Source: Guyanagaster necrorhizus (taxonomy: Eukaryota > Basidiomycota > Agaricomycetes > Agaricales > Physalacriaceae). From it: a DNA stretch of 64,000 nucleotides. The notes under the pieces were generated by a model. The model was not told where the DNA came from. It searched no databases and saw only the letters and a program-made list of their open reading frames with translations. Shown piece after piece: positions 3,273 to 24,378 of this stretch. The number at the start of each line of letters is the position of its first letter. Within the stretch, counting starts at the first letter, position 1. Location of the stretch: positions 861,317-925,316 of the forward strand of contig NW_025064896.1 in NCBI RefSeq assembly GCF_019112545.1, read 5' to 3'. A program made the translations under genes and the position numbers.

Positions 3273-3599
3273 TCAAATTTTCAGGCTTCCATCAGGGTCG
3301 AGCGTGGGTTTGTTATCTCTGGCGTCAGTGCTGTCCATACGTTTAAGGTGCCGCAGACCCTCGCAAACATCGGAACAAACTTCTCCTGTGAGACCGTTCA
3401 TTTTCTTTCCCGCTAAGATAGTTTCGATTACTTTATCCAGATGTTCAACTTCGTCGCAATGACCTTGGTGTCTGTGATCGGGATATTTGCGTACTTCTCT
3501 GAGTAAGTCTTTCACGATGTTTTGTCGATGGTCATTGAAACGTCTGCTTAAATCCAAGGGCAAGACGCTGGAGGAGATTGCGGTATCATTCGGCGACAA
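3273..3599 (-). CDS. Possible exon of an unknown protein
   Basis: An open frame of about 108 codons on the minus strand ends with a stop at 3273. No ATG lies at its 5' end and an in-frame stop lies just upstream, so it would have to be a 3' exon behind a splice acceptor. The translation is polar, with a His/Asp/Glu-rich stretch (YPDHRHQGHCDEVEHLDKV) and no recognisable domain. It lies downstream of the repeat-protein gene on the same strand. It may be a chance frame. Confidence 0.25.
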   Translation of the reverse strand: MSPNDTAISSSVLPLDLSRRFNDHRQNIVKDLLREVRKYPDHRHQGHCDEVEHLDKVIETILAGKKMNGLTGEVCSDVCEGLRHLKRMDSTDARDNKPTLDPDGSLKI

Positions 3600-3982
3600 A
3601 GTCTTTCATGCTGGGGGCATGTTGAAGGGATCTACATCGTGCAAAATTGAGGACGAATTTGGAAGAAATACCCTGTATTATATTTGTCAGTACTTAAGTA
3701 TATCTATAGTACTTCCCAGGACATTTGTCTGGTCTTAAAACGTTACAATGAACGGGGAACATGTTCACGCTGACGACATCATACCAATAGCATTGCATAA
3801 ATCCATGAAAGATACTTGATAGACAACTTGAACAACTCTTTACATCCTAGAATTATGGTCAATCTCCCAACCCAAATGGAGCGCAGGACTGCAAGTTAAC
3901 CAAAACTACTCATCCTATGGTGATCCATTAGCATTGTTGTATTAGGAATCAAATAGACGTTCCTTGCCTCTTAATTGCGTGC

Positions 3983-5060
3983 TCAATAAGTGTCCGGCCC
4001 ACCACCATACCTGAAACAAAGATCCACTCATGAACCTCAGGGGCGGGTCAAAGGGGACGACTTACGGGACAGCAGTGTCTATTTCACTCTCGCGAGCCTA
4101 TAGATCGTATTATGAACATCGGCAAGACTACTCTGAAAAGCGAGTGCCCCACCTCAACTTTCAAGTCACGAACCCAATAGGAATCAGGACCGTTGTCGTA
4201 CCTTCGGAGAAAGTGATGTTGATGTAGGGTGCAGACGATAACCAGAAGGCCACTTACGGACTAACAGAAGCAATCTCTGGCTGACGAGCCTGCGGGATAG
4301 AGCGCGTAAACTTCCTGGAAACAGACAGTGGTGGAGACAGAGGCTTCCGTACCTTGACATCTCGTACCCAATAAGATTCAGGCCCGCTCGCATAACTTTT
4401 CAAGACACATCAATCCACAATAACCACTTGAAACAGATTACTCACGGGACAGCAGAGTCGACACCTTCCTCACGGGCCTATGAGATTGAAGATTACTTTA
4501 CAAATAGATCGGGGTAGGAGAGATTATTCACCTTAATATCGCGCACCCAATAAGTATCAGGTCCATTATCATAGCTGTTTATTTCATATGGTCAGCTGTT
4601 TGACAGATGCCTTCGTACAGGTATCCTTACGGGCTAGATTCCTGGTGAGCCAAATTAAGAAAACCTTGAGGAACCATAACACGCAGGAGTCAGGAGAGAG
4701 ACGCACTTCGACACCACGGACCCAATACGTGCTTGGTCCATTATCGTAACTGGCAGATGCAGGTATTAGTCATCTACTGCACCTGTTGGGCTCAGAGAGA
4801 ACTCACGGGGCTACGGAGTCAATGTCTTCCTGACGAGCCTATGTTTGGTATTGGTGAGATCGTATGCTTCGTTGCAACTATCATGGAATGTCATTACCAA
4901 AAAAGTGGACGAGTATCGTGGAGCTTACCAGTTGACAGAACAAACCTGGTAGGCTTTCAGACCATTGTCAAATCTTGCGATGTTGTTAGACGACTGCAAA
5001 TGGAGAGAAACATTCAGAATTCACCCTCTGCCAGAGTCAGCTTCGGTACGAGGACGCTAA
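3983..5060 (-). repeat. Tandem exon-pair repeat, period about 187 bp
   Basis: Genomic units of roughly 175-195 bp repeat across this span. Each contains a 32-nt exon, an intron, a 43-nt exon and another intron. Conserved blocks recur near 4066, 4258, 4446, 4631 and 4807 (32-nt exon type) and near 4159, 4353, 4532 and 4707 (43-nt exon type). Exons are well conserved and introns are not, which fits unit duplication followed by selection on the coding part. Confidence 0.8.
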
Positions 5061-5181
5061 ATGAATATTGTAAGCGTAGTCCAGACCATTGGCACGGAAG
5101 ATGTTCGCATACGATAATGATCCCAGCATTGGCCGTCCCAAAGGCAAGGAAAGCAAGAGACACAAAAGCAGAGAACTTCAT
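3983..5181 (-). CDS. Secreted tandem-repeat protein, candidate RiPP-like precursor
   Basis: A 13-exon minus-strand model of 155 codons. Exon 1 (5113-5181) encodes a clear signal peptide, MKFSAFVSLAFLAFGTANA. The rest is exon pairs of 32 and 43 nt, joined in phase, each pair giving one 25-residue repeat. The first half is close to A-R-x-x-x-I-D-S-A-V-P; the second is close to Y-D-N-G-P-D-T-Y-W-V-R-D-I-K. Exons: 5025-5056, 4946-4973, 4807-4838, 4707-4749, 4631-4641, 4532-4574, 4446-4477, 4353-4395, 4258-4289, 4159-4201, 4066-4097, 3983-4010. The first repeat is degenerate, the fourth exon pair begins with only 11 nt, and the last ends early at GPDTY-stop. Dikaritin-type precursors have the same plan (signal peptide plus Tyr-containing repeats), and a UstYa gene lies divergently next door. 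Unlike those precursors there is no KR Kex2 site; a K-A-R junction recurs instead. The function is inferred; a structural repeat protein is the alternative. Confidence 0.7.
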
Positions 5182-6263
5182 GATTCCAAACAAGATGAAT
5201 CGAATGGCGTGGATTCATCGTTGCTTGAGGCCTATTATATAGTGATTGCTAGAGCTTCTGAATCGAGCACGGGGACAAGGTGCTGCAATTTCCCGGAGAT
5301 GGTGTCATACGGTCGAGGTTGTTGGGTTGCTCAATGCCAAAGGTGATATGGATCTCGCAAGACGCACCCCAAAATAAAGGATAGAGACGAGTTGTGTCAA
5401 AGATAGTGCTACCGATCTGTCAGTTGGACTATTCCTGAGTTTGGTATGGATATTAGATTACAAAATCTCCGGTTCCAAAGAGAACAACCGCGGATATGAG
5501 TGGCCTCGCCGCAAGGTGTTGTCCACACAGCAGTCAAGAGACCACGAATGAGGCACGACACTCTTGCACACCATCCACATGACAGGAGCTGAGTAAACAA
5601 GGTTTAGCAGAAAAAAACAACTTTAATTTTTCCTCACTCTTTGCGGGTCTTGAGGCTTGAAGGAATACTAGGGTACTTACAGAATAATAAGCAACTTGAA
5701 TAATGAAAGTTGAAGAGCTGCCGGAATTTACCGAGATACACTCAGCAACAGGTTATTCCGGGCCGGGCTCTTTTCATTCCGACCTCGAATCCTCGAAATC
5801 CAAGATGAGTCGCCCAGCGTATGCAGTCTTAGGACGCCTTATTTCTTCTAGAACGCTTGTCTACGCGCAAAAAAGTATTCACACCATGGTCATGAAGGCA
5901 TGTGCATAATTCATTAGCAAGGAACTAGATGCAGAGTCGGCACATTGCTAGATTTACACTGACAGCTTCTATGGGCACGGGAAGATGTAACTTACGTGCT
6001 GAATGAATGGTCGAGTCACCTCGACCAATGGCATTGTTTACCCTGCAAAAGGGTGGTATAAGACTTGGGGATACGTGAAGTGGCGAATCTGTCAAATCAC
6101 TGGACAGTTCTAATCAAGCACGGACTTTGTTTTACCTCAGGTCAGCTTCTTCTCTTGGACTATCAAGTACATGCTTTCACTAATGCTCTAGAACAATATT
6201 TGGATGCTGGGATACATTACACAGCAGGACCTTTCCCAGTACCCCGCAAAATCCGTTTTCTTC
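5182..6263. promoter_or_regulatory. Divergent promoter region between repeat gene and UstYa gene
   Basis: About 1.1 kb separates the two start codons. A TATATAATA element on the minus strand at 5233-5241 sits about 52 bases before the repeat-gene ATG, and a GTATAAGA-like element near 6056-6063 precedes the UstYa gene. A shared, co-regulated promoter is plausible. The interval also contains a short frame at 5703-5909 (listed separately) and a possible minus-strand exon around 5990-6045 bounded by AG and GTAAGT that I cannot assign. Confidence 0.45.
5703..5909 (+). pseudogene. Possible N-terminal fragment of a second UstYa-like gene
   Basis: A 68-codon frame starts with an ATG. Its beginning (MKVEELPEFTEIHS, then GPGSFHSDLESS) resembles the short acidic cytosolic leader that precedes the membrane anchor in UstYa/DUF3328 proteins. 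The expected hydrophobic anchor is poor and no HxxHC motif follows within the next 300 bases. It could be a decayed paralogue of the UstYa gene 350 bases downstream, or chance. Confidence 0.25.
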
Positions 6264-7230
6264 ATGATGGGCAGCGAGTCGCTGGACTATGTCCCGCTAG
6301 TGTCTCCTGACGATGACCCGTACTCCACACGAAAGATTCGCGGGATTCGTTCGAAATGGCGCGAGAAGATTCACATTGGGATCATCTTATTACAAGCTTG
6401 CGTGCTGGTGTTCTTGCTGTTCATCAACTTGCGTGGAGCCAACTGCCAGCCTATCTATGTGGACCGCCCATTGTTATATTGTAAATATCACATCAGTGGA
6501 AACTATTAGCCTTCTTAATCGTCTCTTGGTTAGCGCCTGCTCAAGAGGCTTTGGAGAACGAGGTGAAAGTGTTCACCGTCGGAAGAGAAGAAAAGACGAT
6601 ATATCAAGGTTTCGACAACGAAGCAGATAGAGCTTGGGGCGATCTTTACAACCGTCAGTGATCTATGTCAATGGCGTTCTTCTTTACGATCTCATAGTTT
6701 CACTACAGACACGCTCTTGAAAATCTCCAGAAACGAGGCCGCTCTTCTTCCAAATAAGACTTACCCTATCTACGGTGAAGGTGGATACTACCTTGCTGGT
6801 TTGGACGTATTCCATCAGCTCCATTGCTTGGTGAGTAGGAGGATACCTTTTGGTACGGTAACTCAAACTTTCGGATAGCATGTCGTCCGCCATGCTCTTT
6901 ATAGCGATCAGTTCGATGATCCACACGCAGATCCTGAACATGTCTCCCATTGCATCGACGCGATCCGCCAGTCTTTGATGTGAGCGAGCCCTGATCTTAA
7001 ATTCAACCCTTTGGCTGATATCATTCCACAGGTGTAATGCAGACATTTCCGTGAATGTCTGGCAATGGAGCCAAGAACTCTCTGCTGTCGTGGGATACAG
7101 CTCGCAGGCGCATTCATGTCGCAACTTTGACAAGCTTCGAGACTGGGCGAGGGAGCGCAGGATTCACGAGTGGATCGACATCCGCCTGTTCGTAGAAGAT
7201 GACCTACCAGATCCTCCTATTATCAGTTAG
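6264..7230 (+). CDS. UstYa/DUF3328 family oxidase
   Basis: Five exons (6264-6480, 6534-6653, 6709-6830, 6879-6979, 7032-7230) splice into an intact frame of 252 residues. Family marks appear in order: an acidic cytosolic leader, one membrane anchor (around HIGIILLQACVLVFLLFINL), the YSPAQ motif, a PNKTYPIYG stretch, and the two signature motifs FHQLHC and HCIDAIRQSLMC, then SCRNFDKLRDWARER near the end. The length is typical. UstYa proteins are proposed copper-dependent oxidases that cyclise or hydroxylate ribosomal or nonribosomal peptides in the secretory pathway. The ATG at 6264 (or 6267) gives a normal N-terminus; the ATG at 6204 is in frame and cannot be excluded. The gene is divergent from the tandem-repeat secreted protein, its likely substrate (inference). 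Confidence 0.88.
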
Positions 7231-20368: not shown

Positions 20369-23300
20369 ATGCCTGCAGTAACCTTCAAAGCCAAATCCAT
20401 CACAGAACTTGTCGCAATCCGTGCGCGAGACCAGCCGAATGATCCTGCTATCTATACGGGGTCACCTGAGGATGGTTTCGCCGTAGTACTGCGCTCGCTC
20501 ACGTACCTTTTGAATTTCTTTCTCCGTTGAATCGCGCTAACTCTCGTGTAGCTTTTCCCAAATCCAGTCCGCCGTCGACCGTCTTGCATGGCATTACTAC
20601 ACCGTCGGCCTCGCGTCAAAGACAGCCCCAGGCGAAGTACCTCCCGCGCAGACCATTGCAGTCTTGACAAGTACAGCGATCGACGAATCCCTCCTAGAGA
20701 TGGCCCTCGCAAAGCTTGGTCTGACCGCCCTTCTTCTTTCAGTGAACAACTCTGTTCCGGCAGTAGCGCATCTCACCAAGCTCACCAACGCCACTCACCT
20801 CATCTATGGCACGAAATTCATCCAAGAAGCGCACGACGCGCAGAGACTCCTTCGTAACCAAGGATACTCTGTAGAGCTCGTCGAAGATAAGCGCTTCCCT
20901 TTATGGGGTTCCGAGGGCGTTGAGAGCACCAAGATCAAACCGTTCCCAGCCGTTCTGACACCAGAACAGGAAACCAAACGACCTGCCGTCATCCTTCACT
21001 CTTCTGGCTCAGTGAGTCCTCTCCTATCGTTTGCCCGACTTGACCCCTTATTTGCAGACTGGATTCCCAAAACCAGTTCGCATCACCCACTACGGTCTCA
21101 TCGCGAATGTCGCGTTGAACCAGAACAAGCCAGGATTCAGTACATTGCCAGTATTCCATGGATACGGTCATTTTGCTGTGTCGGTTTCTTACTTTTTGTT
21201 CCATCGGAGAAAAAAGCTGACTTGCCGATGCCTAGATTCCGATGCATCTACCCTGGTCAACCGCTGACGCTCTTCCCGCCTCATCTACCCCTAACATCCA
21301 GCAACATATGTGCCGTACTCGCTGCATCACCGCCTATCCGACAATGTTATGCGGTACCATACGTTATCAAGGTGCTTTCTTTTCCATTCACGTTCCTGTA
21401 GGGCTTGCACTCATGGAAATCTTTGTAGCTTCTCGCGGAAACACCTGAAGGCGTCAACGCCCTAGCCAGTTTCGATATTGTCGGATATGCAGGTGCCCCT
21501 CTGCCCGTAAGATCATCATTTGTCCCTTCTGCTTCCCTTTCGTTATCATCTTTACAACCAGGATGATCTTGGTGACAGACTCGTCCAAGCAGGAGTGAAC
21601 TTACTCAGCATCTACGGAACAACAGAGGTAAAGAATAGTGTTCAACGTTCCTCCCATTGATAAACCTGACTCACCTAATGCAGACCGGATCTCTGATGAA
21701 TTCTAACCGTGACTTCTCGACGGACAAACTCTGGAACTGGACTCGCCCTCTCCTCGGTTCAGCCAACTATCTCGTTTGGGAACCACAAGGCGGCGATACC
21801 TTTGAAGTTATCGTCAAGGACGGGTATCCTCCAAAGGTATGTCAGTCCATTCCCCAAATATTTGGGTGTGCAATCTCAGGCCTTCTTAGATCGAGACTAA
21901 CCGCCCCGACGGATCCTACGCGACCAAGGATCTCTTCCTCCGACATCCTGAGCGCAAAGACTTGTATAAGTACATCGGACGTCTCGACGACACGCTTGTA
22001 CATATCCTCGGGGAGAAGACCAACCCCGGTAAGCATCCTCCTAGGCGTTCTACTCCAGCTGACGAGCGACAGTCCCCATGGAACTCTGTATCCGAGGAAA
22101 CAGCCCATACGTCGCAGAAGGTAGTACCAATATCCCTCATAGCGTTTTATCTATTAATGTCTTCCCAGCCATCGTCTTCGGGGCCGGGAAACCCCAAACG
22201 GGGTGCCTGATCCTCCCTTCCGACCTCGCTAATGAAGAAGGCCTCTCCCAGGATGAGCTCATGTCCAAAGTCTGGCCCGTCATCGAACAAGCCAACGCTG
22301 AAGCACCAACCCATTCGCGGTTGCTACCCGAGATGGTTGAGTTCTTGCCGTACGTCCATATACCGTGTTCGAGACGAAAACTGATGGAAAGAACACAGGT
22401 ATGATACAGCTATCCCGGTAGCCACCAAGATGAGTATACTCCGATCGGCGTGTTATTCGAAGTTCAAGGACCTCATAGGTATGGCCCTCGCTTCGATACC
22501 GGCCCATGCGTCATGGATTTACTGGTTTTCAGAAAACATCTACGCTCGGTTCGACCAAACTGACTTCGAGGTGGAGAAGAAGACACTACCACGAGAGGAG
22601 CTGGAGGCATACATCTTTGATACCATTGCCAAAGCTCTTGGCCCCAATCGGTCAGCGAAGCTTGATAGAAAAGTAGATCTCTTCGCATTTGGAGTAGACT
22701 CGTTACAGGCGACGAGGATTCGGAATAGCTTTCAGAAGGAGCTGGAATTGGAGACTCATAACCTTAGACAAACAGGTAAGAGAGGCCATTCTGCTTCCAG
22801 ACGAATGAAAGACTCTCAACTGCTTCGTTAGTGGTGTATGAGCATCCGTCGGTGGAGAAGTGCGTCCATTTTTCATCCTTGAACTGTGGGACTGACCTCG
22901 ATGCTTTTCCAGACTTGCGGATTACATCCTGCGACTACAAAGCGGTGTTACTCAAGTAGACAATGGGTGCGAAGCCGTGATGCTAGCACTGCTCGATAAA
23001 TGGGGTGCCAAGGTTGGCACACATACGGCCAGAGCTAATGCTCCACCAAAGCCTACCGACAGACGTGTAATCGTAAGCCCAGATTCCTTGCACCTCAAAA
23101 TAAAGACTCACTCTACTCACGCATAGCTCCTCACCGGCGCAACGGGATCCCTCGGTGCACACATTCTTTCTCAGTTAACAGCATCCTTTTCCGTTGGAAA
23201 GGTCGTCTGTCTGTCTCGCGCCAAGTCTCACGCGGAATCTCTGGAGCGTGTCAGAGCGTCGGTCGCTGCCCGGAAAGTTTCCGTCGACGAAACCAAGGTC

Positions 23301-24378
23301 ACGTCGTACGGAGCAAACGCCAACGAACCTCTCCTCGGGTTGACAGCAGAAGAGTACGGCGCACTACGAGATGAGGTGACGGACGTTATCCACGTACGTT
23401 ACAACCTCATCCTCCTTCCGTGTCGTGGTATTTACCGTGGACTGAAAACAGAACGCCTGGCCTGTGAATTTCGTGCTCAACATCGAGTCCTATGACACGC
23501 ATATCGGAGGCGCGGTGAATCTCATCAACTTGTGCCTTGAGTCTCCCTTCTCCGAGCCTGCCTCGTTCGCGTTCAGCTCGTCCGTCAGCTGTAGGCAAGG
23601 GTCCCAGGACGAGACATGTTCGGAGGGCTTTTCTCCTGCACCGTCGACGGCTGCAGGAACGGGTTACGCGCAGAGCAAGTGGGTCGTGGAGAAGCTGTGT
23701 GAGCGCGCAACGGAGAAGAGTAGGGTGCCCGTGTCGGTTCTGCGGATAGGCCAGATGGTCGGGGATTCTGTGCAGTAGGTGGTCTCGTCCTTGAGAGAAG
23801 AGCATATGTTGATTTCTTCCTTTTTAAGTGGCGTGTGGAACGAAACGGAGGCATGGCCATTGATGTTCAAGAGTGCGAATACTGTGGGCGCGCTTCCTGT
23901 GGTTGACGAACACCCTTCGTGGCTCCCTGTAGATTTCGCAGGGAAAAGTATAGCAGAGGTCGTATTGAGTACGACGAAGCCTGCCACGGCTGTGTACCAC
24001 ATCGTGAATCCCAACACGTCGGCTCATTGGAAGGATATTCTCGCTGGACTGGAAGCTTCTGGTGTGAGCTTCGAGCGTGTGGATAAGAACGAGTGGGTGG
24101 AGAGGCTAGCCAAGTCTGATGCGGATGGGAAGAAGAATCCGGTTATCAAGCTGTTGGTGAGTACCGTTGTTGGTGAGTGGTGACAGGTTGGTTGCTCACA
24201 AATTGTGCGGCAGCCTTTCTTCCGAATGAGATATGGACCATCCCATAGAGCGCCGATGGTGTTCTTGACAGAGATAACGACCAAAATCACACCTACTTTG
24301 AAACAGGCACCGGTCGTTGATAGAGAGCTTGTGGCAAAATGGGTGGCACACTGGCGAACCACCGGATTTATCAACTAA
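20369..24378 (+). CDS. NRPS-like carboxylate reductase (adenylation-thiolation-reductase)
   Basis: About 14 exons give one continuous protein. Adenylation domain: the phosphate-binding loop LHSSGST-GFPKP near 21000, HGYGH, LPLTSSNICAVL, GYAGAPLP, SIYGTTE near 21620, GRLDDTLVH and RGNSPYVAEA-IVFGAG. Thiolation domain: DLFAFGVDSLQATRIRNSF near 22680-22735, with the Ser of DSL for phosphopantetheine. Reductase domain: the NADP loop LLTGATGSLGAHI near 23130-23165, a short-chain-dehydrogenase catalytic YAQSK near 23665, RIGQMVGDSV, and a normal C-terminus (WRTTGFIN). Enzymes of this plan activate a carboxylic acid and release it as an aldehyde or alcohol; the substrate cannot be read by eye. The start ATG at 20369 precedes the conserved SITELV region; the first intron follows VLRSLT. 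No break seen. Flanked by a divergent DAL5-like carrier. Confidence 0.88.

Follow-up and report, generated by a model that had tools for sequence, protein, structure and literature searches.

In a 64,000-nucleotide stretch of the genome of Guyanagaster necrorhizus (Physalacriaceae, Agaricales; 53.3-Mb genome), which we refer to as the window, we found a repeat-protein gene on the minus strand (5181..3983) that, with a probability of roughly 0.6, is a dikaritin-type multicore RiPP precursor which would be oxidised by UstYa and release its units after monobasic (K/Q)AR. The gene lies on a contig of 1,135,965 bases and can be modelled as 13 exons separated by GT-AG introns of 50-107 nt, which together yield a 155-aa protein. 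An intact UstYa-family gene is transcribed divergently from it, about 1 kb away, and this adjacency provides strong circumstantial support for the RiPP-precursor plan that the original prediction had proposed.

The protein starts with MKFSAFVSLAFLAFGTANAGIII, continues as alternating spacers and cores, and ends in YGGGPDTY followed by the stop, with an N-terminus, MKFSAFVSLAFLAFGTANA-G, that by eye resembles an ER signal peptide. As originally predicted, the core, YDNGPDTYWVRD, is present in six whole or partial copies (3983..5181 minus), namely one degenerate copy at the 5' end, four full cores and one copy shortened by the stop. A full unit of 75 nt, or 25 residues, is laid out on two micro-exons, a 43-nt core and a 32-nt spacer: the four full core exons each measure 43 nt and the partial first and last ones 28 nt, and there are five spacer exons of 32 nt and one of 11 nt. 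The proposed 25-residue unit length is exact in three units, whereas the first two units are 20 and 18 residues long. The intron phase alternates regularly, with phase 0 after cores and phase 2 after spacers. The claim that all repeats splice in frame was confirmed by the 13-exon GT-AG model, with which the NCBI model BT62DRAFT_226825 (P0001, 119 aa) agrees through nine exons (1-9 identical), covering exon 10 partially and ending early (Table 1). The donor of exon 11 is ambiguous by 6 nt, as an alternative, GTGGGG, lies 6 nt further and adds VE. Between exons 2 and 3, a splice reading SSNNIARFDNG was dropped in favour of the NCBI splice, because the latter keeps the alternating phase. A core-like stretch overlapping intron 1 (SYANIFRANGLDYAYN; ~5067-5114 minus, frame +1) could not be spliced in frame in our models and was treated as chance; several of its codons resemble those of exon 3 and of the intron preceding that exon (SSNNIARFDNGLKAYQ), perhaps as a relic copy, perhaps by chance.

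Table 1. Coordinates of the precursor exons, the adjacent UstYa gene and the second precursor (window positions unless a contig is given).
Feature	Position	Strand	Basis
Exon 1: signal peptide MKFSAFVSLAFLAFGTANA-GIII	5113..5181	-	also in P0001; signal peptide by eye
Exon 2: spacer-type RPRTEADSGRG, 32 nt	5025..5056	-	also in P0001
Exon 3: degenerate core FDNGLKAYQ, 28 nt	4946..4973	-	also in P0001
Exon 4: spacer ARQEDIDSVAP	4807..4838	-	also in P0001
Exon 5: core YDNGPSTYWVRGVE	4707..4749	-	also in P0001
Exon 6: short spacer ESSP, 11 nt	4631..4641	-	also in P0001
Exon 7: core YDNGPDTYWVRDIK	4532..4574	-	also in P0001
Exon 8: spacer AREEGVDSAVP	4446..4477	-	also in P0001
Exon 9: core YASGPESYWVRDVK	4353..4395	-	also in P0001
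Exon 10: spacer ARQPEIASVSP	4258..4289	-	partly in P0001, whose end falls inside
Exon 11: core YDNGPDSYWVRDLK, donor GTTGAG	4159..4201	-	splicing and similarity among copies
Exon 12: spacer ARESEIDTAVP	4066..4097	-	splicing
Exon 13: final copy YGGGPDTY, stopped by TGA at the position of the TGG (Trp) codon of the full copies (four)	3983..4010	-	
Intergenic region precursor/UstYa, presumed shared promoter	5182..6203	.	inferred from position only
UstYa-family gene, NCBI BT62DRAFT_951836 (P0002), 272 aa	6204..7230	+	PF11807, E 4.1e-46
Second precursor	C2:1334381-1333638 (L050:5638-6381)	-	own model; start and first intron are a reading

Comparing the copies with each other, we found the core to be the constrained part of the protein. 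The repeat pattern exceeds chance: ungapped comparison of the four full cores gave scores of 64-84 for the six pairings, and Y, G-P and Y-W-V-R are common to all four. Differences among the four full core exons numbered 15, 12 and 54 at codon positions 1, 2 and 3 (of 84 each), i.e., 54 of the 81 pairwise differences concern the third codon base, and the corresponding counts for the four spacers were 18, 20 and 32 (of 60 each). The pooled pS/pN values of 0.93/0.17 for the cores versus 0.61/0.32 for the spacers indicate the stronger constraint on the core. Upon aligning introns of the same type, we found that the highest score among 100 shuffles was matched by one of the 16 pairs and exceeded by none. 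Taken together, the codon-position pattern, the pS/pN values and the lack of intron alignment point to old copies whose introns have drifted and whose core residues were held by selection at the protein level.

The absence of KR Kex2 sites noted in the original prediction is borne out, as the 155 residues contain no KR, RR, KK or RK. The accompanying claim that K-A-R recurs at each junction holds in part: KAR is found at three of the five core-to-spacer junctions (IKAR, VKAR and LKAR), one reads QAR, and the fifth, GVE-ESSP, is without Arg. Both the lack of a dibasic site and the two junctions of five without KAR count against the dikaritin-type reading. In homologues of the K74 killer toxin, LKAR is reported as a monobasic site that is probably cleaved, and the same paper calls the monobasic sites of the killer toxins K1 and K28 confirmed (PMC13211469). 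The precursor units are probably cut at the monobasic KAR, and each predicted released unit would begin behind one KAR and end with the following one, at ~25 residues (e.g., EEGVDSAVPYASGPESYWVRDVKAR and QPEIASVSPYDNGPDSYWVRDLKAR). A kexin-type P-domain has one match in the genome.

The UstYa protein encoded next to the precursor carries two HXXHC motifs, HQLHC and HVSHC, and by eye one transmembrane stretch. Its exons lie at 6204-6480, 6534-6653, 6709-6830, 6879-6980 and 7032-7230, with ends read to fit P0002; a splice reading RHFTTDTLL was wrong, as relatives and NCBI give NHTLLK. Searching with a model that is inferior to P0002 in one wrong splice, we obtained, out of 684 candidates, 186 relatives with E values of at most 1e-10, with matches of 83% in Armillaria and of 51-60% in Gymnopilus, Phlegmacium, Cyathus and Coprinopsis, each over 92% of the query, and two HXXHC motifs in 116 of the best 120 of these 186. 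A search of solved proteins up to E 1 gave no relative. This UstYa gene is the only one on the precursor contig, on which no tyrosinase match was found either. Further away, we found Kelch pieces at 8.6-9.6 kb of the window, a weak MFS match at 12.9 kb, pieces of an adenylate-forming (adenylating) reductase at 20541-24180 plus (AMP-binding and NAD_binding_4) and, upstream of the window, a P450 piece and sugar-transporter pieces. A short stretch at ~3440-3640 plus (GKTLEEIAVSFGD), convergent with the precursor gene, presumably resembles the C-terminus of a sugar transporter. We see no clear cluster beyond the pair of precursor and UstYa.

In the mechanism that we propose by analogy with dikaritins, the precursor would enter the secretory pathway via its putative signal peptide, and the membrane-anchored neighbour UstYa would probably oxidise the Tyr- and Trp-containing cores YDNGPDTYW, either cross-linking or dehydrogenating them. 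A kexin-like protease would free the units after monobasic (K/Q)AR instead of KR. The Tyr and Trp residues of Y..G-P..Y-W would be natural candidates for modification, and, since the second Tyr is the final residue of the last copy, the essential core would be PYxxGPxxY if that copy is functional. From the sequence, we infer that the precursor would be expressed and acted on by UstYa, with these as the putative modified residues and KAR as the putative cleavage site.

To look for comparable genes, we used a repeat finder made for this analysis, which reports at least three similar peptide segments within 800 nt and takes 10-kb slices singly, such that repeats spanning two slices may be missed. 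It returned the precursor gene and one other convincing case, at the C2 locus, as well as one unconvincing three-copy set in each of the loci L042 and L047. Nothing was found in the other six slices of the window (54 kb), and 21 further loci (73 kb) gave no match; the latter serve as a modest control, because only nine three-kb loci among them (~27 kb) and the 10-kb piece upstream of the window lie at a clear distance from other UstYa genes. Genome-wide, we counted at least 22 UstYa exon matches, which group by position into at least ~19 genes in the 53-Mb genome. Scanning eight UstYa loci (12 genes) with flanks of 5-15 kb on each side, we found an exon-split repeat precursor at two, the window locus and C2, and no similar precursor at the other six; the seven UstYa genes of contig C23 were scanned solely as pieces of ~3 kb, in which repeats could be missed.

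Beside the C2 precursor lie two UstYa matches, one on the minus strand (1334946-1335200) and one on the plus strand (1336330-1336596). It combines a signal-like peptide with five repeats of the form [VI]DVPxSMEEL...AF, with a core of the type VDVPASMEELTAASPDTAF that contains no Tyr. Each repeat occupies one exon (four of 66 nt, the last of 62 nt) with phase-1 introns, KR follows repeats 1-4, the stop comes directly after the fifth core, and the pooled pS/pN is 0.63/0.14. This gene may already be among the basidiomycete KEPs of published surveys. Jointly, the window and C2 loci provide two instances in the genome of one repeat per exon beside UstYa; dibasic sites are present in the C2 precursor and absent from that in the window. 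At two other UstYa loci we made separate observations. UstYa matches at C20:370637-371044 minus break at profile position 178, as in the window UstYa, and the surrounding 20 kb held no convincing exon-split repeat precursor. On C9, starting ~1 kb past a UstYa match, there are two similar 15-aa pieces, RRSFLAGEAEPAKED and KRSFLANEAEPSKDE (L046:4986 and 6379 plus), which are 1393 nt apart and 73% alike in DNA and could be duplicated genes near UstYa.

Searches for relatives of the precursor returned nothing beyond the gene itself. A word-based protein search with a 151-aa model (E up to 0.01) gave only P0001 among seven candidates of 83-264 aa, no candidate had three words in common with a two-row alignment of the repeat units, and in the same genome neither the window precursor nor the C2 precursor had a paralogue beyond the gene itself. 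Matches to the core pattern elsewhere in the genome (3/6, then 7/11) had low scores and look like chance: the four full cores scored 45-49 and the best off-locus core 14, and for spacers the values were 31-33 and, off-locus, at best 14. The core-pattern match near a UstYa gene on C43 showed no repeat in three frames. Missed micro-exons or a true lineage restriction may account for the missing homologues. By the original prediction's own account, close homologues of an ordinary structural kind that have no UstYa nearby would speak against it; no homologues were found by these searches, and the intact UstYa lies ~1 kb away.

Several explanations compete with a UstYa-modified precursor. The gene could encode a secreted repeat protein that UstYa leaves untouched, such as a structural surface protein or a source of linear peptides, with the UstYa neighbour as a coincidence. 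Kex2-type repeat precursors of basidiomycetes are indeed mostly reported away from DUF3328 genes (103 of 1680, or 6.1%, beside them versus 30.1% in Ascomycota; PMC7329392), Agaricomycetes precursors of such type are described as giving linear or minimally modified peptides (PMC9769878), and the gene is without KR sites. However, with at least ~19 UstYa genes and an assumed ten thousand genes or so, chance would place a UstYa gene next to the precursor in about a few cases in a thousand, and the sole other convincing exon-split precursor likewise abuts UstYa, albeit in a scan that covered mainly UstYa loci. Nor did the precursor resemble any solved protein at E values up to 1 or match a Pfam family above the cut-off, although both negatives are weak. 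We regard an untouched repeat protein as unlikely, though still a serious alternative. Less probable, in our estimate, is a decaying RiPP locus that once functioned and produces no longer. The degenerate first copy, the spacer cut to four residues and the TGA in place of a Trp codon in the last copy fit such decay, and the constraint between copies would then record history and not the present. Yet GT and AG ends are possible for all 12 introns, no stop precedes the last copy, and the UstYa gene is intact, with a close relative in Armillaria. Moreover, the KR-bearing C2 precursor also stops right after its last core, such that a shortened last copy may be normal.

Finally, UstYa might serve a non-ribosomal or small-molecule pathway, e.g., one involving the adenylating reductase at 20.5-24 kb, with the repeat protein as a separate matter. 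Window ORFs do match NAD_binding_4 (E 7.8e-16) and AMP-binding (E 4.2e-4, below the curated cut-off), but the reductase is ~13 kb off, with Kelch pieces and the weak MFS match in between, whereas the precursor is the immediate neighbour of UstYa; we deem this pathway very improbable. UstYa-family proteins are also reported to act in cyclochlorotine biosynthesis (PMC12048977), which we count against the dikaritin-type reading, as we do the single UstYa gene and missing tyrosinase match on the contig and the six of eight UstYa loci at which no similar precursor was found. Similarly, the wide spread in Agaricales of relatives of this UstYa, with no precursor partner found in the protein searches, for now counts against the pairing of precursor and UstYa.

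The dikaritin-type reading would bear on how mushroom genomes are mined. Reviews present dikaritins as ascomycete products (PMC9233826, PMC12048977), and among the matches listed in our search of titles and abstracts, mostly open-access and with preprints outside it, no characterised basidiomycete UstYa product was found. A search of mostly open-access literature, again with preprints outside it, gave no match joining KEX2-processed repeats to exon/intron layout. Mushrooms are nevertheless rich in UstYa genes, with 16 given for Pleurotus ostreatus (PMC8893723) and at least ~19 in G. necrorhizus. A survey of 1461 fungal assemblies, in which DUF3328 lay beside the above fraction of basidiomycete repeat precursors, asks whether cyclization hardly occurs there (PMC7329392); as described, it builds on annotated proteins and Kex2 sites, so that a KR-free precursor on 43- and 32-nt exons would be missed. 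Tentatively, and at somewhat less than even odds, we suggest that Agaricomycetes possess a class of UstYa-modified RiPPs with exon-cassette precursors, in which each core takes one or two micro-exons in regular phase and some precursors are cut at KAR. If so, such precursors would escape protein-based mining, which could explain why Basidiomycota seem to be short of precursors linked to UstYa. With cassettes of such layout, the set of peptides could be altered by splicing or exon shuffling while the frame stays intact. The precursor probably gives rise to a family of modified peptides which would escape ordinary genome searches, and, if our reading is right, a search rule of exon-split repeats beside UstYa makes mushroom UstYa substrates testable.

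Among known systems, the dikaritins of Ascomycota (ustiloxin, phomopsin, asperipin-2a and victorin) share with the precursor several near-identical Tyr-core repeats and, as judged by eye, a likely signal peptide, and with its locus an adjoining UstYa/DUF3328 gene with two HXXHC motifs, a protein type described as class-defining for dikaritins (PMC12048977). Their known precursors are reported to carry Kex2 dibasic sites (PMC9769878, PMC10512285), whereas our precursor has no KR, RR or KK between repeats, comes from a basidiomycete and places most repeats on two micro-exons. Its locus further differs from that of ustiloxin in having one UstYa gene on the contig, compared to two (PMC10512285), and from dikaritin loci in the lack of a tyrosinase match on the contig; several UstYa genes plus a tyrosinase belong to an older definition of dikaritins, which also names methyltransferase and peptidase genes in the cluster, and the newer one is said not to require several UstYa genes or a tyrosinase (PMC12048977). 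KEPs, which include those of Agaricomycetes, have the same secreted multicopy plan, and the 103 of 1680 basidiomycete KEPs mentioned above have DUF3328 within 15 genes (PMC7329392), but the dibasic Kex2 sites that define KEPs are absent here. The epichloecyclins (GigA) are likewise multicore and are described as having Tyr-Ile cross-links, but they are likely Kex2-processed cyclic nonapeptides from the ascomycete Epichloe (PMC9233826). In the same genome, the C2 precursor shares a signal-like peptide, exon-split repeats, UstYa matches beside it and a last repeat stopped at the core, and differs in its KR after the first four repeats, its core without Tyr, its single-exon unit and its phase-1 introns. 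Since repeats and a UstYa with two HXXHC motifs are present and a signal peptide is likely by eye, while dibasic sites are absent, we file the gene neither as a dikaritin nor as a KEP. Hence, what the comparison supports is a likeness in function, not membership: the precursor most likely works like those of dikaritins and KEPs.
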